64,000 bases of DNA, from assembly GCF_009939295.1 (NCBI RefSeq), contig NZ_WVIC01000020.1:1-64000 (forward strand), read 5' to 3'. This document shows positions 13,505 through 31,713 of the stretch, one piece after another. Origin of the DNA: Petrachloros mirabilis ULC683. Its GTDB lineage: Bacteria > Cyanobacteriota > Cyanobacteriia > Thermosynechococcales > Thermosynechococcaceae. A program made the position numbers and the translations under genes. The notes beneath the pieces are model-generated. The model ran no database searches. It was not told the DNA's origin and saw only the letters and a program-made list of their open reading frames with translations. Each line of letters opens with the position of its first letter. Positions within the stretch are counted from its first letter, which is position 1.

Positions 13505-15190
13505 TCAGGCCAGTTGAATTTCAGCGACAATTGGCAGATCAGCAAGATATTGGCGATCTTCGCTAACATGGGTTACTTTTAATTGAATTTCCGACGCCCC
13601 TGCTTGAATTAAACGCTGCCGTAACTGCTCAAAACTGCCTGGTGCCAAAATTCTCAGTCGTGGCGGGGGTACATCCATCCGACGCATCACCTGATAATGG
13701 GGATTTTCTTGTTGCAGTTCTTGATCAAATGCCTGCAAAAAAGTTTGGGGATTATTGATCTCAGAGCCAGGGATCAACTCAAGATTAACCAGATAATGAG
13801 CCGGAATTTCCGTGGCCGAGAGGGTTACACAAAAGTCATCTAACGTGACTCCAAACTGAGCTTGCAGTCGGCTCATAACCTGAATCACATGAGATTCAGT
13901 GGTTTTCTCACTGGTAGAAGAGATTTGCCCTCCTTGGCGATAGCGAAATATGATTCGGGGGGTTTTTTCATAAAATCCGACTACTTCCACCACATCACCG
14001 ATGTCATAGCGATAGAGTCCAGCATAATTTGTCACCAAAATTCGGTAGAGAGCCCCGACTTTAACCTCTGAAGGCAAGAGCGTTTGAGGCATGAGTTGAT
14101 TCCATTGATCGATGGGAACAAATTCAAAAAAGCCACTTTCTAGAGCCAGAATGCTGCTGTCTTGATTCACCTCTGAAAATAAGCTGTAGGTGGCCTCAGA
14201 GCAGCCATAAACCCCCCCGAAAATGGGGGTATCCCCGATATACTCCGGAAACTGTCGAAAATAAAAATCAGAAGTGCCCCCCCGAGCCGTAGCCACAAAA
14301 GCAAGATGGGGCCAAATGCCCTTGGGGGTAAGCTTGCCCGCCTTATTCAAGACAAATCTCAACTCGTCTGCCCGCTGGGGCTGCGGGAAACAGCGCTGTT
14401 GAAGCTGGGCGCGTTGCTGGGGTGAAATTTTCAGCCAGTCTGCAAGGGTTCCTCGCTCTAGGTCAGCAATCAGACTTTCTGCCTGTTGCTCTAAAATCTG
14501 GCAGGTGCGCAGAAACAACATGGGAAAGTTGGCGGTCATCCCCCGTACGCCTGGATCTCGCATCGAAAATAGCAGACTCAAGTAGGTGCGCGAAAGACTC
14601 TCTTCAATTTCAAAGATACGATAGGGAAAGGAAAAAATGAGTCGGCTGAGTAGTTTCCCCGAACGAATGCTGTTGGCGCTGGCCAGACCATAGGGAATCC
14701 CTGCCGTCGTTTGGCCTAAAATCTGAGCAGAACTAATGGCGTGAGAGCGACCAAACCTAAGGCCGCGCTGCTGCAATTCTTGCCACAAGAAGCCAAAGCT
14801 GGCAAAGTTGGCTCGCTGCATCGATTGCTGAAACCGTCGGGTTAGAGGAACCCATTTACGCTTGCCGGTGGTGCCGCTGGAAATACAGAAATAGTAGGGC
14901 GACTCCGGTGTGAGCAAATTGGGCTCTCCTGCTGCTGTGCGCTCGATCCAGGGCTCGTAGTCTGCGTAGGTTGAGGGGGGGATGCGATCGCGCAACTGAT
15001 CCACCGAGCGAATCTCCCCAATCTGCCATTGTCGCCCCCATACCGTATGACGATGAAACTGTAGTAACCCCTGCAAAAACTGAAGTTGAACCCCATCTGG
15101 TTCACGGGTCTTTCGCATAAATTGGCGTTGACACCTGGTCACATAGGCACCCAGTCCCTTCAGAAACAAGCTAGACAAAACAGGCGGCAT
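13505..15190 (-). CDS. GH3-family acyl-adenylating enzyme
   Basis: 561 residues of the GH3 family (plant auxin/jasmonate acyl-acid amido synthetases; ANL-type adenylating fold). Motifs include YYFCISSGTTGKRKWVPLT (ATP loop, near 108-126), YGCSEATYSLF, a Tyr-rich LYRYDIGDVVEVVGFYEKTPRIIFRYRQGG region, and SSTSEKTTESHV, which in plant GH3 precedes the C-terminal domain. It probably activates a carboxylic acid as acyl-AMP and may couple it to an amine; acceptor and substrate are unknown in bacteria. Its ATG follows the TAG of the upstream pentapeptide protein without a gap, so the two are coupled. Confidence 0.85.
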   Translation of the reverse strand: MPPVLSSLFLKGLGAYVTRCQRQFMRKTREPDGVQLQFLQGLLQFHRHTVWGRQWQIGEIRSVDQLRDRIPPSTYADYEPWIERTAAGEPNLLTPESPYYFCISSGTTGKRKWVPLTRRFQQSMQRANFASFGFLWQELQQRGLRFGRSHAISSAQILGQTTAGIPYGLASANSIRSGKLLSRLIFSFPYRIFEIEESLSRTYLSLLFSMRDPGVRGMTANFPMLFLRTCQILEQQAESLIADLERGTLADWLKISPQQRAQLQQRCFPQPQRADELRFVLNKAGKLTPKGIWPHLAFVATARGGTSDFYFRQFPEYIGDTPIFGGVYGCSEATYSLFSEVNQDSSILALESGFFEFVPIDQWNQLMPQTLLPSEVKVGALYRILVTNYAGLYRYDIGDVVEVVGFYEKTPRIIFRYRQGGQISSTSEKTTESHVIQVMSRLQAQFGVTLDDFCVTLSATEIPAHYLVNLELIPGSEINNPQTFLQAFDQELQQENPHYQVMRRMDVPPPRLRILAPGSFEQLRQRLIQAGASEIQLKVTHVSEDRQYLADLPIVAEIQLA

Positions 15191-17642: not shown

Positions 17643-19361
17643 TTACCAACGGACTTGATCTTGCAACTGTTCCCGGAGCTTGGGGCCAATGCCTGGCACT
17701 CGCTCTAAATCAGCGGCAGAGGTAAAAGGAGCTTGTTGACGGGTCTCAATAATTCGTTGGGCTAGGGCTGGGCCAATGCCGGATAGTTGTTCGAGGTCTG
17801 CCGCGGTAGCCGTGTTGAGATTGAGGCGACTATCATCGAGATTGCGGAAGCTATTTTCTCCTCTTTTTGTCTCTTCTAAACCAGAGCGCTCAGCCCCCCT
17901 TTGATGGGATGTCTCAACTTGAGAGCAGGATTCTGCTTGTATCTCTAGGCGATCTTGCACGGTTGCTGGCAGACCTAAACGACTCTTGGCATAGAGGTGT
18001 TCAAACTCTCGATGGAAGTGGGCCGCGACTGTCGGATCAGAGAGGATCAGTAGAGTTTCGTCGTTACGAAGGTTGGCAGCCTCTGACCAGTTTTGGGAGC
18101 CGGTGATCACGGTGATGCCATCCACCACGCCATACTTGTGATGGAGCAAATCTCCCCTAGGCAGTTGGGGAACACCTACGCTAGACAACGGCTGCGACCA
18201 AGGGCGGTTATTGGGGTCAAATTCACAGGGCTCTCCGGTTTCGGGACGGGTGCGACTTAGGGCAACTCCCAGCATATCCAAGGCTTCGCTGTAGTACCGA
18301 AAGGCAAATTGGGCGTCAATCAAGGCTCGAATCTGTACGCCCTGCTGGTGTTGGGCTTTGAGAATGTTGGAGAGGGGTTGCTCAGAAAACACAAACAGGG
18401 CGAGTTCGACGGTGTGCTGGGCTTGTTGTAGGGTTTGCCCAATGAGGCCATTGACACTCTCTATCCAGGGCTGAGTGCGTGATGTGGGTGAAAACTGGAC
18501 TTGAATTTGGGCGTCTCCAAGGGTCAGACGTTGGGGAGGGCGATAGGGCTTTTGCAAGCCAAATAAGCTGTTGGGCTGTCCCCCGGGACCGTCTCCCCAC
18601 ATCAGGTTAAATTCATGGGTAAAGTGCGATGCAAGGGGGGCACTCTCTAGGATTACCAAGGCATTGGGATTGCCTCGACTTTCGGGGTGGGAAAAATCAC
18701 CATGGAGATCAGACAGGGTGAAGTTGGCTGAGGTCACCAAGACTTTTTGCCCGTCAAGGGTCACAAATTTATGGTGCATCAGACCGCTGCCAGCACTGCC
18801 ATCGGCAGTGTCATCTAGCCAGGGAATGCCTGCATTGCGGATGACTTGAAGGGCGTCATATTCGTTGATTTCAGCTTCTGAGAGCTGGCCATCACTATTG
18901 CGATCGATGAGCTGTAGATTTTCGCGGTAGCGCTCTTGCTGGCGGGCATCTAGGGTTCTGATTTCTTGAGGGGTAAAGCTACTGATGGGGCGGCTGTAGT
19001 TATTTTCTAGGATGACTCGAACCGATAACCCAGCTTGGGTGCGATCGCGCAGAGCCTGAGCAATGAGGGGCGATCGCAGCTCCTGAACGGCCACATCTAC
19101 AGATCTGCGTGCAGCTTGAATCTGCTCAGCAATAATTTGCTCTAGATTATCCCCAGGGCGGTGAATGTGGCGGTAGGGATCTGTATAGGCATCCGCCGGA
19201 TTTTGATTGAAATAGGCCTGAATGAGGGGATGTTGAGGCAGGGCTGGGACTGGCGTGCTGATAATGGGCAGAGACTCGAAGCGCCCAAACAAAAACACCG
19301 CCAGCAAGAGACCTAGCAGGAGAAGCAGACCATATCGAAACCAGCGTGGAACTTGCTTCAC
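17643..19361 (-). CDS. membrane-anchored phospholipase D-like protein with EF-hand and HhH domains
   Basis: 572 residues. One N-terminal transmembrane helix (about 10-26) anchors or exports the protein. Two PLD half-sites are present: HHKFVTLDGQKVLVTSANFT (from 196) and HHKYGVVDGITVITGSQNWSE (about 407). Both have the His, Lys and downstream Ser/Asn or Gln-Asn of the HKD superfamily, though the Asp is shifted. Between the first strands lies a canonical EF-hand loop DRNSDGQLSEAE (153-164). After a polar linker, the C-terminus carries a ComEA-like double helix-hairpin-helix (LNLNTATAADLEQLSGIGPALAQRI...VPGIGPKLREQL). It is probably a nuclease or phosphodiesterase acting outside the cytoplasmic membrane, perhaps Ca-dependent, with DNA binding by the HhH part. 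Confidence 0.85.
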   Translation of the reverse strand: MKQVPRWFRYGLLLLLGLLLAVFLFGRFESLPIISTPVPALPQHPLIQAYFNQNPADAYTDPYRHIHRPGDNLEQIIAEQIQAARRSVDVAVQELRSPLIAQALRDRTQAGLSVRVILENNYSRPISSFTPQEIRTLDARQQERYRENLQLIDRNSDGQLSEAEINEYDALQVIRNAGIPWLDDTADGSAGSGLMHHKFVTLDGQKVLVTSANFTLSDLHGDFSHPESRGNPNALVILESAPLASHFTHEFNLMWGDGPGGQPNSLFGLQKPYRPPQRLTLGDAQIQVQFSPTSRTQPWIESVNGLIGQTLQQAQHTVELALFVFSEQPLSNILKAQHQQGVQIRALIDAQFAFRYYSEALDMLGVALSRTRPETGEPCEFDPNNRPWSQPLSSVGVPQLPRGDLLHHKYGVVDGITVITGSQNWSEAANLRNDETLLILSDPTVAAHFHREFEHLYAKSRLGLPATVQDRLEIQAESCSQVETSHQRGAERSGLEETKRGENSFRNLDDSRLNLNTATAADLEQLSGIGPALAQRIIETRQQAPFTSAADLERVPGIGPKLREQLQDQVRW

Positions 19362-20007: not shown

Positions 20008-23000
20008 ATGACCAAATCATTTCCAATTCAAAACGTTTTGCATTTGTTTGAGCAACAAGCAGTGCGTACCCCCCAAGCCATAGCGGTGATCTATGGGCAA
20101 CATCAGCTTAGCTATGCAGCCCTAAATCAGCAGGCCAACCAATGGGCACGAGTCTTGCAGCATCGAGGAGTGACACCGGAAACCCTGGTGGGTATTTTTG
20201 TGGAGCGATCGATTCCAATACTGGTGGGAATCCTAGGTATTCTGAAAGCAGGCGGCGCTTATGTCCCTATTGATCCTGCCTACCCCAAAGAGCGACTGGA
20301 TTGGCTCTTGGCCGATGCTCAGATGCCCTTCCTGCTGACCCAGGCTCATTTGCGATGGCAGCTTCCCAGTCACGGCATCCACTGCCTTTGTTTGGATGCT
20401 TTGCAGTCGTGTGTGGCCCAGGAGCCCGATCACAACCTAGACAAACAGCCGTTGCCGCACCACCTAGCCTATGTGATCTATACCTCAGGCTCAACTGGGA
20501 AACCCAAAGGCGTCATGGTTGAGCATGAAGCGCTCTTTGACTTTGTGCAGTCTGCCGCTGAAGTGTATGGCATTCAGGCGGATGGAGACACAGCGCATCG
20601 CCTGCTGCAATTTGCCGCCATCAGCTTTGATGCAGCAGTCGAAGAAATTTTTGTCACCCTGACCCAGGGTGCTACTCTAATTTTGCGCACCCCAGAAATG
20701 GTGCAGACCCTCTCTCAATTTGTCCGCACCTGTGCCCAACTAGAGGTCACGGTTCTGGATTTACCCACGGCCTTTTGGCACCAGCTCTGTGCAGAATTAC
20801 CCCGGCTGACGCTGCCCCCCACGTTGCGCACCGTGATTATTGGCGGAGAGCGGGCAATTCCCCACTGGGTTGAAGTGTGGCAGCGTTTCTGTCCGCAAGT
20901 GCGGCTCATCAACACCTATGGCCCCACTGAGGCCACGGTGGTAGCCACCTGCTGCGATTTGGCTGGACCCAATGCGGTGACCCTAGGAGATCGGCTGGTG
21001 CCCATTGGCAAACCCCTGCCCCACATGCAAGCCCATGTGCTAGATGCTAACGGTGAACCGGTGCCGCCACAAACCACAGGAGAGCTGTACTTGGCTGGCT
21101 CGGGGCTGGCTCGGGGCTACCTCAACCAACCCGAAATCACCGAGCAAGTCTTTGTTCATCGGATCTGCCCAGATGGCTCCAGCGCCAGACTGCATAAAAC
21201 CGGAGATCTGGTTCGGTATCGCGCCGATGGCCACCTAGAGTTTCTGGGCCGGGTCGATCACCAGGAAAAAATTCGCGGTTTTCGCATTGACCCGCACGAA
21301 ATTGAGGCGCAGTTGGAAACCCACCCAGCCGTTCAGGCAGCAGTGGCACTAGTGCGAGAAGACAGCCCTGGAGATCGGCGACTGGTGGCCTATGTGGTGG
21401 CTCACCCCAACCCTGAGCTGACTCAGGCTCACCCCCAACACCTAGAGGCTGAACAACTAGATCAATGGCGGCTGATTCATAACGATGATCAATTGAATCC
21501 AGCCAAAGCCAATTGGGATCAGACCTTCAACATCAGCGGTTGGGTGAGCAGCTATACCGGTGGGTTGATTCCTGATGCCGAGATGCAGACCTGGGTAGAC
21601 ACCACCGTGGAGCGGATCTTGGCGTTGCGCCCGCAGCAGGTGCTGGAACTGGGTTGCGGAACAGGACTTATGCTGTTCCGGATTGCCCCCCACTGTCAGC
21701 GATATGTGGGAACTGACTTTTCAGAAGCAGCCCTGGACTATATCAAACAGCAGTTGCAAACCCCCACCCTGGAATTGCCTCAGGTGATGCTGCAACAGCA
21801 TTCTGCCGATCACCTACAGGACTATCTCCCTGAGTCTTTTGACACCTTGATCTTGAATTCGGTGATTCAGTATTTTCCCAGTATTGATTATTTGTTGCGG
21901 GTGCTGACCCAGGCCGTCGAGCTGATCCAACCCGGTGGGGTAATTTTTATGGGGGATGTGCGTCACTATGGCCTCCTAGAAGCCTTTGCCCTCTGGGCAG
22001 AATTGAGTCAGGGGGCAGCAGATCTGCCCACCTCAGAGCTGTGGCAGCGGGTGCAGCAACGCCTGATCCGAGAAGAAGAGCTGACTCTGGATCCGGGCTT
22101 TTTTACGGTCTTGCCCCAAGTCCTGCCCCAAATTGGCGCGGTACAGGTCTTGATGAAGCGGGGGCAAGCAGATAATGAACTGACCCAATTTCGGTACGAT
22201 GTGGTGCTCCATGTGGGTGCGATGCCTCGTCCCAGCGACCCGCCCCTTCGCTTCAATTGGCAGGCAGCAAAGCTCACCCTACCCCAACTGCGTCATCTGC
22301 TCTTACAAGAGCGTCCCCCCGTTTTGGTGTTGGAACAGGTGCCTAACGCTCGGATTGGGGGTGCGATCGCAGCCCTCAACCTCCTCCGCTCTAGCGACTG
22401 TCCCCTCACCACCGCAGACCTCCGCACTCGCTTATCGCAGTCTCAGGGGGTTCATCCTGAAGCCCTGGCTGCCCTCGCCCAAGACTGCGGCTACGACCTA
22501 GAACTTAGTTGGGCAGAGGGGGCTGTCGATGGATCCTATACAGCATTTCTGAGTCAGGCTAATCGCAATGCCTCAGCATCTTCGGCTTGGACCTATACTC
22601 TCGTGTCTGCCGCTCCCGGCACCAACCAACCCCAGCCTTGGCATCACTACGCCAACAACCCCTTACACAGCAAAATGGCGCATCATCTGGCGGCCCAACT
22701 GCGCCGCCACTTGCAACAGCGCTTACCCACCTATCAATTACCCGCTGCCATTGTGGTACTCGAAGGGTTTCCGCTGACAGTGAATGGCAAAGTCGATCGC
22801 CGGGGTTTACCCCTACCCAATACCCAACGTCCCCAGCTTCATACCCCATTTATGCCGCCAGCAACTCCGATCGAACAAGAACTGGCTCGGCTCTGGTCTA
22901 AAGTATTAGGCGTCCATGAAGTCGGCATTCACGACAATTTCTTTGATCTGGGGGGAGATTCACTGCGGTTGATGCAGTTACTGGGGCAAATCGAAGCACT

Positions 23001-24345
23001 TTACCCCAAAGTGATTGCCTTTAATCAGTTTTTTGAGCAGCCCACCATTGCTGGCCTCAGTCAGCAAATTGCAGTGCCAGCCCAGAATGCCCCTGAGGGG
23101 GCAAGCGAGTTTATGGCGCTGTCCCAACTGCTTGCAGAGGCGCAACTATCGCTCCCCCCCGTTCAGGTCAGGTGGGATCACCAGAAGCCAGTCGAAGAGT
23201 TTCACATGGGCTGGATGGGACCACAACGCATCTTGTTAACAGGAGCCACCGGGTTTATTGGTCTGTTTTTGCTGCATGACCTGTTGCAGCAAACTGCTGC
23301 CGAGATTTATTGCCTGGTGAGGGCAAACACCTCCGCTGCTGCTCGCCAAAAGCTACAACAGCGCTGGCAGCAGTTTTTACCTCATAGCCCCTTTCCCAGC
23401 CATCGCATCATCCCAGTTCTAGGAGACCTGAGCCATCCCCAACTAGGACTTTCAGAGCCGCAATTTCATCAGTTGGCCGACTGCATTGAGGTCATTTATC
23501 ACGCTGGTGCCAACGTCAACCTCCGCTATCCCTATGGCGCACTCAAGGCCGCCAATGTCGTAGGCACCCAATCAATCCTAACCCTGGCCATGACCCGCAG
23601 ACCCAAACTGGTTCACCATCTTTCTACCCTAGATGTATTTGAATCAGCAGTGGCGACCGGGGCAGCCATGATCTACGAGCAAGATACGATTGCCCAGGGA
23701 CCTGGACTCTCGGGGGGCTATGCCCAGAGTAAATGGGTGGCAGAGGCTCTGGTGACAGCAGCATCTCACCAGGGGTTGCCAGTTTGTATTTATCGACCTG
23801 GGATGGTGACCGGGCACTCTCAAACCGGAGTAGCCAACCCCGAAGACTTGCTCAGTCGCCTGTTGATCAGCCTGATTCAACTGCAATGCGCGCCCCAGAT
23901 TCAGCTCAGGGTGGATATGACTCCAGTCGATTATGTCAGCCGTGCGATTGTGGCACTCTCCCAACAGCCGCAGTCCTGGGGTAAGGCTTTTCATTTGGTG
24001 AACCCCTATCCCCTGGCGTTAGATGAACTGGTGTCTTGCTTAAATGACTGGGGGTACGGTATTCGCACCATTCCTTATGCGGAGTGGCAGGCGCGATTAC
24101 ACACCCCTGGGAACGCCTTGGAGCCGCTGGCTCCAGTACTGACAGAAGTGATCAATGCGGATCACCAAACCCGCTTAGAGGTCTGGCTATCAGGGACTCA
24201 AATCTTTGACTGGCAAAACACCCGCATAGGGCTTCAGAATCACCCATTGCCTTTTCTAGCCATAACAGCGGCCTACCTCGAACAATACTTTGGCAAGATT
24301 CCCAATCTGTTGCGAGGTAGTGCTCTCATGAAGAATACAGGCTAA
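20008..24345 (+). CDS. stand-alone nonribosomal peptide synthetase, domains A-MT-T-R
   Basis: 1445 residues forming a single module without a condensation domain. The adenylation domain comes first (YTSGSTGKPKGVMVEH, FDAAVEEIF, NTYGPTEATV, LHKTGDLVRYRADGHLEFLGR, IRGFRIDPHEIEAQL). A methyltransferase is inserted from about residue 490 (VLELGCGTGLMLF near 547), and the A domain closes with NGKVDRRGLPLP. The carrier domain has FFDLGGDSLRLMQ (Ser near 984). A terminal NAD(P)H reductase has LLTGATGFIG (about 1075) and YAQSK (about 1237). Hand-aligned specificity residues read D-A-E-D-I-G-T-V-V-K, which I cannot assign. It should activate one amino acid or other carboxylate, methylate it (position of the MT suggests N-methylation) and release it reductively as aldehyde or alcohol. 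No tailoring genes or phosphopantetheinyl transferase are adjacent. Confidence 0.92.
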   Translation: MTKSFPIQNVLHLFEQQAVRTPQAIAVIYGQHQLSYAALNQQANQWARVLQHRGVTPETLVGIFVERSIPILVGILGILKAGGAYVPIDPAYPKERLDWLLADAQMPFLLTQAHLRWQLPSHGIHCLCLDALQSCVAQEPDHNLDKQPLPHHLAYVIYTSGSTGKPKGVMVEHEALFDFVQSAAEVYGIQADGDTAHRLLQFAAISFDAAVEEIFVTLTQGATLILRTPEMVQTLSQFVRTCAQLEVTVLDLPTAFWHQLCAELPRLTLPPTLRTVIIGGERAIPHWVEVWQRFCPQVRLINTYGPTEATVVATCCDLAGPNAVTLGDRLVPIGKPLPHMQAHVLDANGEPVPPQTTGELYLAGSGLARGYLNQPEITEQVFVHRICPDGSSARLHKTGDLVRYRADGHLEFLGRVDHQEKIRGFRIDPHEIEAQLETHPAVQAAVALVREDSPGDRRLVAYVVAHPNPELTQAHPQHLEAEQLDQWRLIHNDDQLNPAKANWDQTFNISGWVSSYTGGLIPDAEMQTWVDTTVERILALRPQQVLELGCGTGLMLFRIAPHCQRYVGTDFSEAALDYIKQQLQTPTLELPQVMLQQHSADHLQDYLPESFDTLILNSVIQYFPSIDYLLRVLTQAVELIQPGGVIFMGDVRHYGLLEAFALWAELSQGAADLPTSELWQRVQQRLIREEELTLDPGFFTVLPQVLPQIGAVQVLMKRGQADNELTQFRYDVVLHVGAMPRPSDPPLRFNWQAAKLTLPQLRHLLLQERPPVLVLEQVPNARIGGAIAALNLLRSSDCPLTTADLRTRLSQSQGVHPEALAALAQDCGYDLELSWAEGAVDGSYTAFLSQANRNASASSAWTYTLVSAAPGTNQPQPWHHYANNPLHSKMAHHLAAQLRRHLQQRLPTYQLPAAIVVLEGFPLTVNGKVDRRGLPLPNTQRPQLHTPFMPPATPIEQELARLWSKVLGVHEVGIHDNFFDLGGDSLRLMQLLGQIEALYPKVIAFNQFFEQPTIAGLSQQIAVPAQNAPEGASEFMALSQLLAEAQLSLPPVQVRWDHQKPVEEFHMGWMGPQRILLTGATGFIGLFLLHDLLQQTAAEIYCLVRANTSAAARQKLQQRWQQFLPHSPFPSHRIIPVLGDLSHPQLGLSEPQFHQLADCIEVIYHAGANVNLRYPYGALKAANVVGTQSILTLAMTRRPKLVHHLSTLDVFESAVATGAAMIYEQDTIAQGPGLSGGYAQSKWVAEALVTAASHQGLPVCIYRPGMVTGHSQTGVANPEDLLSRLLISLIQLQCAPQIQLRVDMTPVDYVSRAIVALSQQPQSWGKAFHLVNPYPLALDELVSCLNDWGYGIRTIPYAEWQARLHTPGNALEPLAPVLTEVINADHQTRLEVWLSGTQIFDWQNTRIGLQNHPLPFLAITAAYLEQYFGKIPNLLRGSALMKNTG

Positions 24346-25022
24346 GCCCCATGGGGATAGGGATGTAGCAGGTTGCCAGTCTCTTGTCTGAGGGTCTCGA
24401 TGTAGCTGGTGAGGATTTCTACAGCATTTGGTTCTGTAGACAGTGCTCCAGAGCCAAACACAGCCTTGATCGCCTTGTCGCATTTGCGGACGGGCACGAT
24501 CTGATCGCGCACGGATTCAAAGCCGTAGGTTTCGATGTCTCGAAGGATGAGTTGCTCTAGGCACCAAAAACGGTGAGCAAGAATTTTCTGAAAGGTTGGG
24601 AAATCAACGGCGGCTAGGGCACGGAGATAGTTTTTGTCGCCGGTGAAGATAAAAGCCTGAAACTCTTCATCCTTTTGCAGAATTTCAGTGATATGGACGG
24701 TCAAAATCGCCTCCCCCTCATCTATGCTCTCGCATTGGGAGATTTGAATAAAGAGGTCTTGGTCAACCTCCAACTGGCCAATCTGGGGGAGAGTCGTCGC
24801 TAACTCGATCGTTCTCTCGTAGTTTACAAACAGTGCTTCAGGTTTTCTAGCTTTACCCTTTTTTATCTTGTCCCAATCACCCTGAAACTTATATTTTGCC
24901 GTTTCCAGAACCCTGATCTTCTCCGGGGTAGCATTGAATAGGCTTACTGTTTTGTCGAATAGGTCAAAGGTGGCGAGCTTTTTGAGAATATCATTATCGA
25001 TGCAGTAGATGGAGCCAGCCAA
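24342..25022 (-). CDS. PIN-like domain protein, partner of the upstream ImmA/IrrE-like gene
   Basis: 226 residues, TTG start (MAGSIYCIDNDIL). Acidic positions are placed as in PIN nucleases: D near the N-terminus in YCIDNDILKKLA, E in the segment CESIDEGEAILTV, and D in FIFTGDKNYLRALA. This suggests a metal-dependent RNase. It follows the ImmA/IrrE-like gene with a 2-bp gap, so the two form an operon; such pairs are typical of toxin-antitoxin or defence modules. Its stop codon overlaps that of the convergent NRPS gene by two bases. The family is not one I know by name, so the nuclease role is inferred from the motif spacing. Confidence 0.6.
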   Translation of the reverse strand: MAGSIYCIDNDILKKLATFDLFDKTVSLFNATPEKIRVLETAKYKFQGDWDKIKKGKARKPEALFVNYERTIELATTLPQIGQLEVDQDLFIQISQCESIDEGEAILTVHITEILQKDEEFQAFIFTGDKNYLRALAAVDFPTFQKILAHRFWCLEQLILRDIETYGFESVRDQIVPVRKCDKAIKAVFGSGALSTEPNAVEILTSYIETLRQETGNLLHPYPHGA

Positions 25023-25024
25023 AC

Positions 25025-26014
25025 CTATTCTCCCAGGATGCGCTCTAGATAATCTACGTTGTCATCGCTTAGGCTATCCCAGTCCAAATGCTTTTCTAGA
25101 AACTGGTTGATGATGATATTGCCATCTTCAGCACAGTGAAGGCTTTGGACAGCTCTATTAGCAAGTCCATAGTTTTTGGTGTGCCAGGCGTAGTTAAGAG
25201 CAAGAGCGCAGGCATCAACTGTAGGATCTGATTTCAGCTTCTCAAGTAGCTGTTGCTTGAGCTGCTCGTTATTATAAAGCTTTTTATTTTTGAAGCAGTT
25301 ATCGAATTGATTGACTAAAAGGCAAACGGCGAACCTATTGGCTTCCATTTCCTCTAAATCAGTAGAGTCTTGATCAATTTCATCATCGATTAAAATACCG
25401 TCTTGAACATGGCCTAGGGCGAGGTGCGCCAACTCGTGGGCGAGGTGAAAGCCTAACCAGGCGGGATGGGTCCGTTTGTGGCTAAGCACAATGACTGGGC
25501 GATCGCCCTGCCACTGAACCATGCCGGTGATTTTGCGGGTGTTGTCTGGGTAGTCGTTGAAGTAGACCACGGCAATGCCGTGCTGCCAGCAGTAGTCTAA
25601 AATCGCCGCTAGAGTGATCTGGGGATAACGCTGGAGAATCTCTGTGCGAACCTGGGTGACGCTGCTGGGAATGGGAATAAAGGGTTGCTTAAGGCTGCAG
25701 GCGACCAGTTCTGCCACCCGCGAGGCGAGCTGGTGGGAGGTGCTCGGAATATCGGCCTGGTCTTGGACGTGATATTTGAAGTTGGTTTCGGGTAAAGGTT
25801 TAAACCGAATGTCTTGATCGTCTTTGATCAAGCTCTCTAGGTCTAGGTTCAGCCGCTTGGAGATGTGCCCAGCGCCTTCTAGCACGGCGGCGGGTTTGTC
25901 GTTTAGCTCATCGCTCCACCAGCTTGGCAGGCCAGCCCTTCGCACGTAGCTAGCACTCAGCCCCACGGCAGAGAGCTTTTGGTAGAGCTTATCCATAGAT
26001 AGCGTCTGGGTCAT
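25025..26014 (-). CDS. ImmA/IrrE-family (COG2856) metallopeptidase-like protein
   Basis: 329 residues. The zinc-peptidase motif HELAHLALGH lies near 195, with a downstream acidic segment (LEEMEANRFAVCLLV) that supplies the third ligand, as in ImmA and IrrE. The N-terminus (LSASYVRRAGLPSWWSDELND ... ISKRLNLDLESL) resembles the leader found before ImmA domains in Xre-type regulators, though I see no clear helix-turn-helix. A role as the regulator or antitoxin of the PIN-like protein encoded 2 bp downstream is inferred. In known pairs the peptidase cleaves a repressor; no separate repressor gene is visible here. Confidence 0.75.
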   Translation of the reverse strand: MTQTLSMDKLYQKLSAVGLSASYVRRAGLPSWWSDELNDKPAAVLEGAGHISKRLNLDLESLIKDDQDIRFKPLPETNFKYHVQDQADIPSTSHQLASRVAELVACSLKQPFIPIPSSVTQVRTEILQRYPQITLAAILDYCWQHGIAVVYFNDYPDNTRKITGMVQWQGDRPVIVLSHKRTHPAWLGFHLAHELAHLALGHVQDGILIDDEIDQDSTDLEEMEANRFAVCLLVNQFDNCFKNKKLYNNEQLKQQLLEKLKSDPTVDACALALNYAWHTKNYGLANRAVQSLHCAEDGNIIINQFLEKHLDWDSLSDDNVDYLERILGE

Positions 26015-26680: not shown

Positions 26681-29425
26681 ATGCCCCTCTCTCGAAAGCT
26701 AGATGCCTATCTGCAAGGGGTACCGTTACGATTGGTACTAATTGTTCCGTTTGTGGTTCAGATTGTCTCAGCGGTCGGCTTGGTCGGATACCTCTCCTTT
26801 AGAAATGCCCAAAGTTCGGTGAACCAGTTAGCTCAGAAGCTTAGTAGTGAGGTCGGCTATCGGGTTGATCAACACCTGGATACCTATTTAACCCTGCCCC
26901 ACCAACTGGCAGAAACAGCCGTTGACTCCCTAGAAACCGAGGTTTTGGCGCTCCGAGACTTTGAAGGCGCTGGTCGCTTCTTTTGGAAGCAGGTGCAACT
27001 CCACGCTGAGATTGGGTTTTTGGGATACTACCTGGAGAGTGGTGAAGGGGTGGCAGCGCAGCGATGGCCCCCTGGCACCGGAGTCAATATCGTGGAGCAT
27101 TCCCTGGCCGATGGCAAAGACTACAACCATGCCACCGATAACCAGGGCAATCGCACCGAGGTCATTGAGAGCAATAACTACTTTGCCCCTGAGGATCAGT
27201 GGTTCATTGACGCCAAAACCGCAGGCCAGCCCACCTGGAGCAGTATCTATACGGCTGAGGGCTTTCCGGACTACGTTGCTATTTCGATGGCGCATCCCCT
27301 CTATGACGCTAACCAAAACTTCTTAGGAGCCTTGAGTGTCGATTTGTTGTTGAGCGACATCAGCAACTTTCTGCGGATGCTGGATGTAAGCCCCAATGGT
27401 CGGGTGTTTATTGTGGAGCGCAATGGCTTGCTGGTGGGCAAATCTAGTCCCCATGACACCTATCAGGTGGCTGAAGAGGATGCCATTCGCATCAGTGCAT
27501 TGGAGAGTACCGATCCGGTGATTCGCTCAACGGCTCAACTGTTACAGGCTGAGTTTGGCAGCTTCGATGCCATTCAAAGCGCAGCATATCTGGATGTGCA
27601 CAAGCAAAATCAGTCCTTTTTTGTGCAGGTGCTTCCCTGGCAGGATGACTATGGGTTGGATTGGTTGGTGGTGGTGACCATTCCTAAGTCCGATTTTATG
27701 GCTCAGATTGATGCCAATACCCGGATGACGCTGTGGCTGTGTTTGGGGGCGTTTGCGATCGCAGCCCTTCTGGGTCTCTACACCTCTCGCTGGATTGCCA
27801 ACCCCATTTTGCGGCTCAACCAAGCCAGCCAAGCCTTAGCCCAAGGTGACTTTAGCCATACCGTTCAAGTCAAAGGCACCCAGGAACTGAGCGAGTTGTC
27901 CCATGCCTTTAATACCATGGCTGCCCAGCTCGAAAATGCCATGGAAGGGTTAGAAATGCGCGTGAGTGAACGCACCGCCGAACTGGCCGAAGCCAAACAA
28001 GCTGCCGAAGCCGCCAATAAAGCCAAAAGCCAGTTCTTAGCCAACATGAGCCACGAACTGCGCACCCCCTTAAATGTGATCCTGGGCTTTACCCAAATCT
28101 TGAACCGCGACGCCACCTTAAAACAGATTCAGCGGGATCATCTGGAGAAAATCAGCCGCAGCGGCGAGTATTTGCTTTCGCTGATCAACGATGTCCTGGA
28201 GATGGCCAAAATCGAAGCCGGACGCATTGTACTCACCGAAGCCGAACTCGATCTCGATGGCTTGCTGAGCACCATTGAAGATATGCTGCACCTGCGCGCC
28301 ACCAGCAAAGGGCTGCAACTGATCTTCGAGAAGGAGGAGAGCATCCCTCGATTCATCCAAGGGGATGGCAAAAAACTGCGTCAGGTGCTGCTGAACCTTC
28401 TCGTCAACGCCATCAAATTCACAGAATCAGGCACCATTACCCTGCGAGTCACCCGCAGCGAAACCCCGGAAAAGTACAGTCTGTCCCCTGAAACCCAGTC
28501 CCGACTTCAGTTCGAGATCGAAGACACCGGCATTGGCATTGCCCCCTCAGATTTACCCACCCTCTTTGATCCCTTTGTCCAGACTGAAATTGGGATGCAG
28601 TCTCAACAGGGGACTGGACTAGGGCTGACCATCAGCCGTCAATTTGTGCATCTGATGGGGGGAGACATTCAGGTCGATAGCGTTGTCGCTCAAGGCACCT
28701 GCTTCCGCTTTGATATTCCCCTCAAACTGGGCACAAGCCTGCCCAAACTCCAGCCTTCCCCACAGCGAGTGGTGGGTCTTAAACCCGGCCAGCCCCAGTA
28801 TCGGATTTTGATCGTTGACGATCGCACCGAGAACCGGCAACTGCTGGTAGAGCTTTTGCAGCCCATTGGGTTTCAACTCCAGGAGGCCGCCACTGGTCAA
28901 GAAGCCATTGACCAATGGCAGCGCTGGCACCCGCACCTGATCTGGATGGATATTCGGATGCCAGTTCTCAGCGGCAGCGAGGCCGCTCAACACATTAAAC
29001 GCCAGATTAACAGTCATCCAACCATTCTCATTGCCCTCACCGCCAGCGCCCTAGAGGAACAACGCCAAGCCATTCTATCGGCAGGATTTGATGATCTGAT
29101 CCGCAAGCCCTTTCTGGCGGCAGAAGTCTTTGCCAAAATGGCTCAATATCTGGGCGTTGAGTATATCTACGCGCCTGCTTCCATCCCCGCTGCTACAGGG
29201 TCTAGTTCTGCACCCTTCAGCCCTTCTACTCTAAAGATTATGCCTCGGGAGTGGATCGCTCACCTGCTAGACGCTTCCATTCAGCTCGACCAGGAGCGGA
29301 TTCTGCACCTTCTAGACCAGATTCCTCCTCAGCAGGAAGCCCTTAAGCATCACCTGCAAACGCTGGCCAATGACTTTGATTTTGATCTAATTGCCACCTT
29401 GGCTCAACAGGCGACGACGATATGA
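26681..29425 (+). CDS. hybrid sensor histidine kinase (dCache-HAMP-HisKA-HATPase-REC)
   Basis: 914 residues. Transmembrane helix 1 at about 17-37, a large extracytoplasmic Cache-type sensor domain (about 45-340), helix 2 at about 350-370, HAMP (about 372-425) and a coiled coil. The phospho-acceptor His is in NMSHELRTPLN (about 457). The ATPase has N (LLNLLVNAIKF), G1 (IEDTGIGI) and G2 (GTGLGLTIS) boxes. The receiver domain has RILIVDD (about 707) and WMDIRMP (Asp near 756). The C-terminal 70 residues are helical without an obvious Hpt motif. Its TGA overlaps the ATG of the REC-PAS-GGDEF-EAL gene (ATGA), so the pair should signal together. The ligand is unknown. Confidence 0.93.
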   Translation: MPLSRKLDAYLQGVPLRLVLIVPFVVQIVSAVGLVGYLSFRNAQSSVNQLAQKLSSEVGYRVDQHLDTYLTLPHQLAETAVDSLETEVLALRDFEGAGRFFWKQVQLHAEIGFLGYYLESGEGVAAQRWPPGTGVNIVEHSLADGKDYNHATDNQGNRTEVIESNNYFAPEDQWFIDAKTAGQPTWSSIYTAEGFPDYVAISMAHPLYDANQNFLGALSVDLLLSDISNFLRMLDVSPNGRVFIVERNGLLVGKSSPHDTYQVAEEDAIRISALESTDPVIRSTAQLLQAEFGSFDAIQSAAYLDVHKQNQSFFVQVLPWQDDYGLDWLVVVTIPKSDFMAQIDANTRMTLWLCLGAFAIAALLGLYTSRWIANPILRLNQASQALAQGDFSHTVQVKGTQELSELSHAFNTMAAQLENAMEGLEMRVSERTAELAEAKQAAEAANKAKSQFLANMSHELRTPLNVILGFTQILNRDATLKQIQRDHLEKISRSGEYLLSLINDVLEMAKIEAGRIVLTEAELDLDGLLSTIEDMLHLRATSKGLQLIFEKEESIPRFIQGDGKKLRQVLLNLLVNAIKFTESGTITLRVTRSETPEKYSLSPETQSRLQFEIEDTGIGIAPSDLPTLFDPFVQTEIGMQSQQGTGLGLTISRQFVHLMGGDIQVDSVVAQGTCFRFDIPLKLGTSLPKLQPSPQRVVGLKPGQPQYRILIVDDRTENRQLLVELLQPIGFQLQEAATGQEAIDQWQRWHPHLIWMDIRMPVLSGSEAAQHIKRQINSHPTILIALTASALEEQRQAILSAGFDDLIRKPFLAAEVFAKMAQYLGVEYIYAPASIPAATGSSSAPFSPSTLKIMPREWIAHLLDASIQLDQERILHLLDQIPPQQEALKHHLQTLANDFDFDLIATLAQQATTI

Positions 29426-31713
29426 ACAACGTTTCATCCATAATCCCCAAGATCTTAATTGTTGATGACTTCATCGACAATCTCCGGGTGCTTTCTCAAG
29501 CCCTGGATGAGCAAGGCTTTGACGTGCGCTGCGCCAAGGGCGGTGCCATGGCACTCAACAGTCTGCAAACCACCAAGCCAGACTTGATTCTGCTCGACAT
29601 CAAAATGCCAGAGATGAATGGCTACGAAGTCTGTCAGCGAATTCAAGCCGATACCCAAACCCAGAGCATTCCCGTGGTGTTTATGAGTGCCCTAGATGAT
29701 GCCTTGGACAAGGTGAAAGCCTTTGAAGTCGGCGGCGTTGACTATATTACCAAGCCTTTCCAAATTGATGAGGTGTTGGTGAGAATTCGCCATCAATTGT
29801 CTCTACAAACGGCGCACCAAGAAATTCAGCATTTGAATGCCACCCTGGAACACCAAGTCGAGCAGCGTACAGCGTTACTTCAGATGGAAATGGTCGAGCG
29901 CACCCAAGCTGAGCAGCGACTCAAAGAAAGTGAGCAACGCCTCGACAGCATTCTCAACGCCCTAGAAGAAGTGGTGTGGTCAACCACTGCGCCTGCTGCG
30001 GTTTCGGTGATCGGGGAGCCAGACCAAACAAAGGTGCTTTACCTCAACAAGGCAGCAGCCCGCATCTACGGACGCCCGCTGGCAGAACTAAAACGCCAGC
30101 CCCATTATTGGCTGAATTTAGTGCATCCCCAAGATCGCAACCGCGTCGTACAAGAGTATGCCCGCCTTGCGCAAAAAGGTAGTGTGAGAATGCGATACCG
30201 AATTGTGCGGCTCGATAGCGAAATCCGCTGGCTCAAGCACCGCAGCCAGATCAGTTATGCCCCAGATGGTACAGCTATTCGAATCGATAACACAATCTCT
30301 GACATTACGGTGCAACAGCGCATTGAGGCACAACTCCGCCATGATGCCCTTCACGATGGGTTGACGGGGTTGCCCAATCGCACCTTGTTTATGGAGCGGA
30401 TTGACCAGGCAATTAAGCACAACCAGCGACATCCGGAAGATCTGTTTGCGGTGCTGTTTATTGATCTCGATCGGTTCAAACTTGTTAATGATAGTTTAGG
30501 TCACGGGGTTGGAGATCATCTCTTGATTACGATCGGCCAAAGACTTCAAACTTGTCTCCGCAGTGCCGATACCCTCGCTCGGTTGGGGGGAGATGAGTTC
30601 ACCATCTTGCTTGAAGATGTGCAGGAGATGACCGAGGTGATTCAACTGGCTGAGCGCTTGCTGGCGGAATTGGCACACCCCCTGACGTTGCAGGGACAAA
30701 CTCTGGTGGTGGGAGGGAGCATTGGCATTGTCTTTAATACCAGTGGCCATGACACGGCGACAATGCTGCTGCGCGATGCCGATATTGCTATGTACCGCGC
30801 TAAAAACCAAGGCAAAGGTCGATATGCCATTTTTGATCAGGTCATGTACGACCAGACCTTAAAGCGCCTGGAAATTGAGAGCGATCTGCGTCAAGCGGTA
30901 GAGCAATCGGCCTTTTTTCTTTGTTATCAACCCATTTTTAACATTCAATCGGGTCAGCTCTATGGGTTTGAAGCCTTGATTCGCTGGCAACATCCCCAAA
31001 AAGGGCTGGTTTCTCCTGCTGATTTTATTCCCACTGCCGAAGAAACTGGGTTGATTATCCCCATTGGGAAATGGGTGCTGCGAGAAGCCTGTCGGCAACT
31101 GCGTACTTGGCAAGTCCAATTCCCTGAAATCCCAGATCTAAAGCTGAGTGTCAATTTATCGGGCAAGCAAATTCAGGATCCGACGCTGCTCACCACCATT
31201 GATCAGATTTTGGCTGAGTCAGGACTCGATGGCAGTTGTCTGCGCTTAGAAATCACTGAAAGTATGCTCATGGACAGCGGTGAGGACTCGTCTCATCTGT
31301 TGTTACAGTTGCGCGATCGCAGCATTCTCCTCAGCATTGATGACTTTGGTACCGGCTATTCCTGCCTCAGCTACCTGCGTCGTCTGCCGGTCAACACCCT
31401 CAAAGTAGATCGCTCCTTTGTAGATCAGATGACCCAGGATGTAGAGAGCTACGAGATTGTTCGCACCGTGATCACCCTTGCCCACACTTTAGGCATGACT
31501 GTCGTTGCCGAAGGGGTTGAGACTGCGGCTCAAATCGAGGCGCTCCAGGATCTCGACTGTGAATTTGCCCAAGGGTACTTTTTTGCAAAACCTCTCCAAC
31601 AACAAGTCGTTGAAGCCGCCCTAGAACGGTATCAAGCTCAAGGTCAGTGGATTCCTGGTCCTGTTCAATGTGTAAGTCCTGCGGTGACTCATTTGTCCTC
31701 TAACCAACTCTGA
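29422..31713 (+). CDS. response regulator with PAS, GGDEF and EAL domains
   Basis: 763 residues: a receiver domain (ILIVDDFIDNLRVL; phospho-acceptor in LILLDIKMPEMNGYE; TKPF), a coiled coil (about 135-180), PAS (about 180-305), GGDEF (RLGGDEFTILLED near 389) and EAL (FEALIRWQHP near 516, DDFGTGYSCLSYL, VVAEGVET). Both catalytic signatures are complete, so it could make and degrade cyclic di-GMP. It is translationally coupled to the hybrid kinase, its likely phospho-donor. Its 3' end overlaps the convergent glycosyltransferase-like gene by 25 bp. Confidence 0.95.
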   Translation: MNNVSSIIPKILIVDDFIDNLRVLSQALDEQGFDVRCAKGGAMALNSLQTTKPDLILLDIKMPEMNGYEVCQRIQADTQTQSIPVVFMSALDDALDKVKAFEVGGVDYITKPFQIDEVLVRIRHQLSLQTAHQEIQHLNATLEHQVEQRTALLQMEMVERTQAEQRLKESEQRLDSILNALEEVVWSTTAPAAVSVIGEPDQTKVLYLNKAAARIYGRPLAELKRQPHYWLNLVHPQDRNRVVQEYARLAQKGSVRMRYRIVRLDSEIRWLKHRSQISYAPDGTAIRIDNTISDITVQQRIEAQLRHDALHDGLTGLPNRTLFMERIDQAIKHNQRHPEDLFAVLFIDLDRFKLVNDSLGHGVGDHLLITIGQRLQTCLRSADTLARLGGDEFTILLEDVQEMTEVIQLAERLLAELAHPLTLQGQTLVVGGSIGIVFNTSGHDTATMLLRDADIAMYRAKNQGKGRYAIFDQVMYDQTLKRLEIESDLRQAVEQSAFFLCYQPIFNIQSGQLYGFEALIRWQHPQKGLVSPADFIPTAEETGLIIPIGKWVLREACRQLRTWQVQFPEIPDLKLSVNLSGKQIQDPTLLTTIDQILAESGLDGSCLRLEITESMLMDSGEDSSHLLLQLRDRSILLSIDDFGTGYSCLSYLRRLPVNTLKVDRSFVDQMTQDVESYEIVRTVITLAHTLGMTVVAEGVETAAQIEALQDLDCEFAQGYFFAKPLQQQVVEAALERYQAQGQWIPGPVQCVSPAVTHLSSNQL

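Follow-up and report, generated by a model that had tools for sequence, protein, structure and literature searches.

What can a nonribosomal peptide synthetase (NRPS) of a single module, ending in a reductase, be doing in a genome that offers it no partner? The question is raised by the first 64,000 nucleotides of contig NZ_WVIC01000020.1 of the cyanobacterium Petrachloros mirabilis ULC683 (the whole stretch of DNA analysed, hereafter the window), in which an intact reading frame of 1445 amino acids encodes a stand-alone synthase with the layout adenylation (A), methyltransferase (MT), carrier (T) and reductase (R). An earlier note on this DNA had considered the gene an orphan; instead, it belongs to a widespread cyanobacterial family that is coupled to a downstream sensor kinase, so that a role in sensing or signalling suits it better than a metabolite route of its own. 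It is proposed, with an even chance, that the window gene supplies the synthase of a synthase-receptor cassette for a small amino-acid-derived signal.

Linkage and co-inheritance of synthases and sensor kinases

Full-length stand-alone homologues of the window synthase are found at 51-54% identity in genomes G181, G245, G175, G351 and G115, and a second group at 39-45%; versions of about 1000-1050 amino acids that have no MT (A-T-R) also occur in cyanobacteria. A contig search with the window synthase protein alone returned only distant Pseudomonas NRPSs. A hybrid histidine kinase lies beside the stand-alone A-(MT)-T-R gene at 25 of 27 determinable loci, as against 2 of 37 comparison loci. The latter comprise 19 condensation-domain A-MT loci (two of them with a kinase, which is cytosolic, of the PAS-GAF type and unrelated), a further 8 loci with condensation or R domains (none with a kinase) and 10 C-A-T-R genes, C denoting condensation. 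In the first set, made up of determinable loci brought in by the synthase, the kinase is present at 17 of 19; since a kinase search had earlier turned up some of these loci, a second set was built from a synthase search alone, and here it adjoins all 8 determinable new A-T-R genes and none of the 10 C-A-T-R genes found by the same search. Seven of these 8 kinases follow their synthase in the same orientation, in two cases after a small gene on the opposite strand, and one is convergent. Fisher tests give p = 3e-13 overall and p = 2e-5 for the test set, values that overstate independence, as the loci are related by descent. Gene calls in the fetched neighbourhoods were longest open reading frame calls, and the counts leave out L115 and L127 (found via the kinase), L052 (broken), L055, L067 and L141 (at contig ends) and L142 (with an additional partial A domain). 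Stand-alone synthases, and not condensation-domain NRPSs, are linked to sensor kinases; literature searches, mostly outside subscription journals, found no kinase-linked one-module NRPS and no description of the association.

The kinase is almost always located downstream of the synthase on the same strand, mostly less than 350 bases away (gap usually 6-320 bp), and at most loci it is followed by a REC-HATPase gene. In most relatives the gap holds no gene at all, and in some it holds one or two, such as an NNMT-type amine methyltransferase (L050 and L051), a HalD-like gene with a SET gene (L049) or a MATE exporter (L053). The presence of an NNMT-family methyltransferase or a MATE exporter at this position was counted in favour of a signal.

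In the window, 2335 bp separate the synthase from the start of the kinase, which lies past an inserted pair of opposite-strand genes and overlaps the following regulator gene by 4 nucleotides; the earlier note had overlooked this conserved kinase and its regulator:

26681-29425, plus strand: hybrid histidine kinase, dCache-HAMP-HisKA-HATPase-REC, the proposed receptor (Pfam, neighbourhoods, predicted structure)
26771-27700, plus strand: dCache sensor domain of this kinase, whose similarity tracks that of the synthase A domain (genome search, trees and Mantel test, predicted structure)
29422-31713, plus strand: REC-PAS-GGDEF-EAL regulator, with a probable cyclic di-GMP (c-di-GMP) output (Pfam)

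Sensor and synthase are co-inherited. When the window sensor region was compared with 390 genomes, the top non-self matches came from G181, G351, G245 and G175 (60% identity, 574-580 bits; the next match reaches 425 bits), which are the genomes with the closest synthases to that of the window, and in three of these four the match follows the synthase by no more than 1.7 kb. Together with the window sensor, the four form one supported clade in the sensor tree. A replicate started from the Ala-type kinase of L061 gave best matches most of which again flank synthases, including the Pro-code A-T-R gene of G006; two of its matches, L116 and L117, have no adjoining synthase, and a plasmid search with the sensor of an Ala-type kinase found nothing. 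The sensors of L049-L051 match the window sensor at 59-61%, while the comparison of these loci with the kinases of the Ala/Gly/Pro group yields mostly 54-67% for the core and 13-20% for the sensor; the window kinase, in turn, carries the same sensor type as L049-L051 on another core (44%). In a partial Mantel test on 16 pairs, the A domain correlates with the sensor when the core is given (0.655, p = 2e-4) but not with the core when the sensor is given (0.075, p = 0.27). An A domain whose similarity tracks the sensor rather than the kinase core is what ligand matching predicts. Within the Ala/Gly/Pro group, there is no sorting of sensors by code.

The synthase and its probable chemistry

The window synthase is divided as follows:

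20008-24345, plus strand: stand-alone A-MT-T-R synthase, 1445 amino acids (open reading frame call, Pfam, NCBIfam, motif strings)
20047-21420, plus strand: A domain up to motif A8, code DAEDIGTVVK with the last K assumed (Pfam, alignment; pocket closest in the PDB to ApnA A1, 4d4g)
21469-22287, plus strand: S-adenosylmethionine (SAM) methyltransferase inserted between A8 and A9, probably of the N-methyltransferase type (Pfam, motifs, phmmer against 5wmm)
22690-22842, plus strand: remainder of the A domain, A9 and A10 (motif strings)
22876-23067, plus strand: T domain with Ser985 (Pfam, motif)
23215-24249, plus strand: thioester reductase (R) domain with GATGFIG and YAQSK (Pfam, NCBIfam, motifs)

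Every core motif of this layout is present. Pfam finds, in this order, AMP-binding (residues 14-372), methyltransferase (545-647), PP-binding (957-1020) and NAD_binding_4, the thioester reductase (1077-1314), and the protein scores above cut-off for the NCBIfam models TIGR01733 (amino-acid adenylation) and TIGR01746 (thioester reductase). String matches locate A2-A8, A9 at residue 906 and A10 at 926, the SAM motif VLELGCGTG at 545, the carrier Ser985 within LGGDSL, and the R-domain motifs LLTGATGFIG at 1076 and YAQSK at 1238. The earlier note had read an A domain split by a methyltransferase, a carrier Ser and a YxxxK reductase, all of which are confirmed, and the chemistry that it had derived from them, in which one amino acid would be loaded, methylated and reductively released, is supported by domains and motifs. 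LtxA (lyngbyatoxin), a cyanobacterial enzyme, and the teleocidin synthetase are likewise NRPSs that combine an N-methylating A domain with reductive release, although, unlike the window synthase, they have two modules, a condensation domain and a dipeptide alcohol as product.

In the genome of P. mirabilis (4.12 Mb, 99.96% complete) there is no match to the condensation-domain model PF00668 anywhere, while control genomes do match, and the only ketosynthases matched are FabF-like, of the fatty-acid type, with no sign in them of a modular polyketide synthase (PKS). The lack of a condensation domain or other NRPS or PKS gene, first remarked within 20 kb of the synthase, thus extends to the whole genome, no condensation domain that could act with it being encoded elsewhere, and the synthase must act alone in chain assembly. 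An Sfp-like phosphopantetheinyl transferase at C7:164192 is a candidate activator of its carrier domain. The aldehyde could, in principle, feed into a larger pathway whose other genes lie elsewhere, with the kinase linkage being only part of the pathway's control, and the tailoring genes between synthase and kinase in some relatives (NNMT-type methyltransferase, HalD-like, SET) would suit this; however, the empty gap in most relatives, together with a window genome devoid of condensation domains and modular PKSs, makes it improbable.

As to the methyl group, a single phmmer stretch (residues 17-935) matches 5wmm, which is taken here to be TioS, and the stretch NELTQFRYDVV at residue 723 resembles the M2 motif of NRPS N-methyltransferases. 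The TioS-type interrupted A domain also has its methyltransferase between A8 and A9, although TioS belongs to a multimodular NRPS. An insertion at this point is the usual N-methyltransferase site, resulting mostly in N-methylation, and KtzH has an O-methyltransferase at the same site (PMC11355689). The window enzyme would place the methyl group on the alpha-amino nitrogen.

The specificity code, formerly read by hand, was reproduced by alignment as DAEDIGTVVK, with the tenth residue K being assumed. Over the pocket, the nearest solved A domain in the PDB is ApnA A1 (4d4g), which shares with the window synthase Glu at 239 and the LPTA-WH and IIGGER stretches, although it belongs to an anabaenopeptin synthetase, where it initiates a long peptide. 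In Planktothrix, according to a flattened table, ApnA A1 domains activate Arg if their code is DVEDIGAIEK or DVEDIGAVEK, Arg and Lys if it is DVEDIGGVEK, and Arg together with Tyr in the case of DVEDIGIIAK and of most DVESIG types (PMC5311044). Thus, the code is not without a lead, as had been supposed, since it comes close to the DVEDIGxxxK and DVESIGxxAK codes of ApnA A1 (Arg, or Arg and Tyr). Because of this closeness, an Arg-like basic or amphiphilic amino acid is the best guess for the substrate, Arg itself being a tentative choice whose chance falls a little below even; A236, T322 and V331 of the pocket are not among the listed ApnA A1 codes. Related synthases carry the codes DLFNNALTYK, DILQLGLIWK and DVQFIAHVVK, presumably for Ala, Gly and Pro, respectively. 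Neither the code DAEDIG nor A-MT-T-R brought up anything relevant in literature text searches.

A proposed signal and its receptor

In the proposed mechanism, the A domain would activate one amino acid (Arg-like in the window; Ala, Gly or Pro in relatives) and load it onto the T domain, the inserted MT would methylate the alpha-amino group of the loaded amino acid, and the R domain would use NADPH to release it as an amino aldehyde or alcohol that may then cyclise. This product, or a simple follow-on, would be exported, and the hybrid kinase downstream would bind it through its extracytoplasmic dCache domain and hand phosphate on to the regulator that follows, which in the window is the REC-PAS-GGDEF-EAL protein, and hence to c-di-GMP. 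The synthase product would thus be the ligand of the adjoining kinase, and autoinduction may be the outcome. A wider proposal, advanced tentatively and not quite at an even chance, is that of a large cyanobacterial family of one-enzyme signals, each synthase making a private amino aldehyde or alcohol (Ala, Gly, Pro or Arg-like) for the sensor of the adjoining kinase to read, with sensors being swapped as the substrate class changes.

The window sensor is predicted to be a dCache domain (predicted local distance difference test, pLDDT, 87.6), and the solved folds nearest to the model are MkcA, Mlp24 with Arg/Asn/Ser, PctD and the histamine receptor TlpQ. For the L061 sensor model (pLDDT 81.6), the nearest folds are MkcA and mmHK1S-Z3 (3lib); the latter is an archaeal kinase counted with the amine receptors (PMC10104139). 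The predicted dCache folds therefore match amino-acid and amine receptors; for the amine (AM) class, dCache_1AM, 3lib and PctD are among the fold neighbours, with the positions of the AM motif not being reliably mapped. At the position of the carboxylate-binding Arg of dCache_1AA (R126 of PctA), the window sensor has Asp (D-Q-W-F), and the other window-type sensors aligned have no Arg either. Asp at this position would suit a ligand without a carboxylate, a weak hint, because cyanobacterial sensors not linked to a synthase are also without an equivalent of R126, and the amino-acid motif does not discriminate linked from unlinked sensors.

Small reductive NRPSs are needed for diffusible autoinducers in two known cases, HamD (A-T-R) for valdiazen in Burkholderia (PMC5878181) and PvfC in Pseudomonas (PMC10194917), the receptor for the Pvf signal being still open in 2023. 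The likeness lies in an A-T-R-type enzyme behind a small diffusible signal, whereas the difference is that these systems make diazeniumdiolates or N-oxidised products via N-oxygenases, none of which was seen among the neighbours scanned with Pfam (a part of the neighbours of all loci), and that the window system has an inserted methyltransferase and a linked sensor kinase. In Vibrio, the signal synthase CqsA (CAI-1) works with the membrane sensor kinase CqsS (PMC3310172), a pairing like that proposed for the window cassette. By analogy, the best reading is that the window system would work like CqsA/CqsS or valdiazen/Pvf, but by different enzymes. CqsA yields a hydroxyketone and is not an NRPS, and CqsS is not known to have a dCache domain. 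Receptors are known for few of the cell-cell signals of cyanobacteria. The present analysis names a synthase and its candidate receptor at each of 25 loci and predicts building blocks, and the pairing suggests an unrecognised family of chemical signals and receptors. If true, this would explain why single-module reductive NRPSs persist where a genome has no other NRPS, and the A-T-R-derived signals known from Pseudomonas and Burkholderia would gain a receptor class.

Several points weigh against a signal read by the adjoining kinase. Two stand-alone synthases, L110 and L123, have no adjoining kinase; in the window, no transporter adjoins the synthase, and its cotranscription with the kinase is unlikely, because the two-gene insert interrupts the cassette; the covariation of sensor and A domain stems mostly from few exchanges, that is, from few evolutionary events; sensor classes differ widely between loci (dCache types, MASE1, an amino-acid-permease fusion, HAMP-PAS), with no single receptor family serving all; and the role of a kinase beside a biosynthetic gene may be limited to controlling the expression of that gene. 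The last two points lead to regulated biosynthesis, in which the kinase would sense an unrelated cue (light, nutrient or envelope state) and switch on the production of a small amine (an antimicrobial, protectant or metallophore). Neighbouring biosynthetic genes are often under kinase control, and dCache domains bind many ligands; on the other hand, condensation-domain NRPSs of similar genomes are without such kinases, and it is the sensor, not the kinase core, that tracks the A domain, which leaves this explanation possible rather than probable.

The insert, neighbouring genes and further loci

The interruption of the window cassette consists of one feature:

24342-26014, minus strand: two-gene insert between synthase and kinase, encoding a 226-residue protein of no assigned function and a 329-residue IrrE/M78-like protein, absent from the related loci examined (open reading frame calls, Pfam)

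The 226-residue protein has no Pfam match, and the IrrE/M78-like protein is weakly similar to the RmrA and CapP defence models; the pair may be toxin-antitoxin-like or defence cargo. Such an insert could have uncoupled the synthase from the kinase, leaving the former as a relic of a decaying system, and the synthase of G351 is indeed broken, being split by a rearrangement between two large contigs (L052 and L069) into residues 1-1342 and 1374-1461 (G175 numbering), the latter 3' end still adjoining the amine methyltransferase and then the kinase. In the window, however, the 1445-residue frame, all catalytic motifs of the synthase, the kinase and the regulator are intact, which makes decay highly improbable.

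Upstream of the synthase, a minus-strand gene (17643-19361) encodes tandem nuclease domains of the phospholipase D (PLD) type fused to a ComEA-type helix-hairpin-helix, with DrmC of DISARM as best defence-library match; no other DISARM gene was found among the window proteins scanned. Further upstream (13505-15190, minus strand), a GH3-family acyl-adenylating enzyme, distantly like the lyso-ornithine lipid synthetase OlsH, adjoins a pentapeptide-repeat protein. The GH3-like ligase, the pentapeptide protein and the nuclease were all considered as partners of the synthase and rejected, having no counterpart in related loci.

Elsewhere in the family, the notion of secondary amines (N-methyl or Pro) as the sole kind of product was abandoned, as Ala and Gly A-T-R enzymes without MT are also kinase-linked. 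At L056 (3582-7775), the kinase next to the synthase is a fusion protein in which a membrane domain resembling an amino-acid permease precedes PAS-GAF-HK-REC-REC (HK, histidine kinase). At L110 (4654-8728), a Gly-code A-T-R gene has dCache chemoreceptor genes nearby instead of a kinase, which suggests a taxis output. Finally, there are related two-module versions, among them NRPS WP_067776562.1 on plasmid pNOS3756_1 of Nostoc sp. NIES-3756, with kinase WP_067776573.1 and regulator WP_067776570.1; such NRPSs, which have a Pro code, then an N-methylating Gly-like module and reductive release, lie near sensor kinases at L059, L063, L065 and L130.

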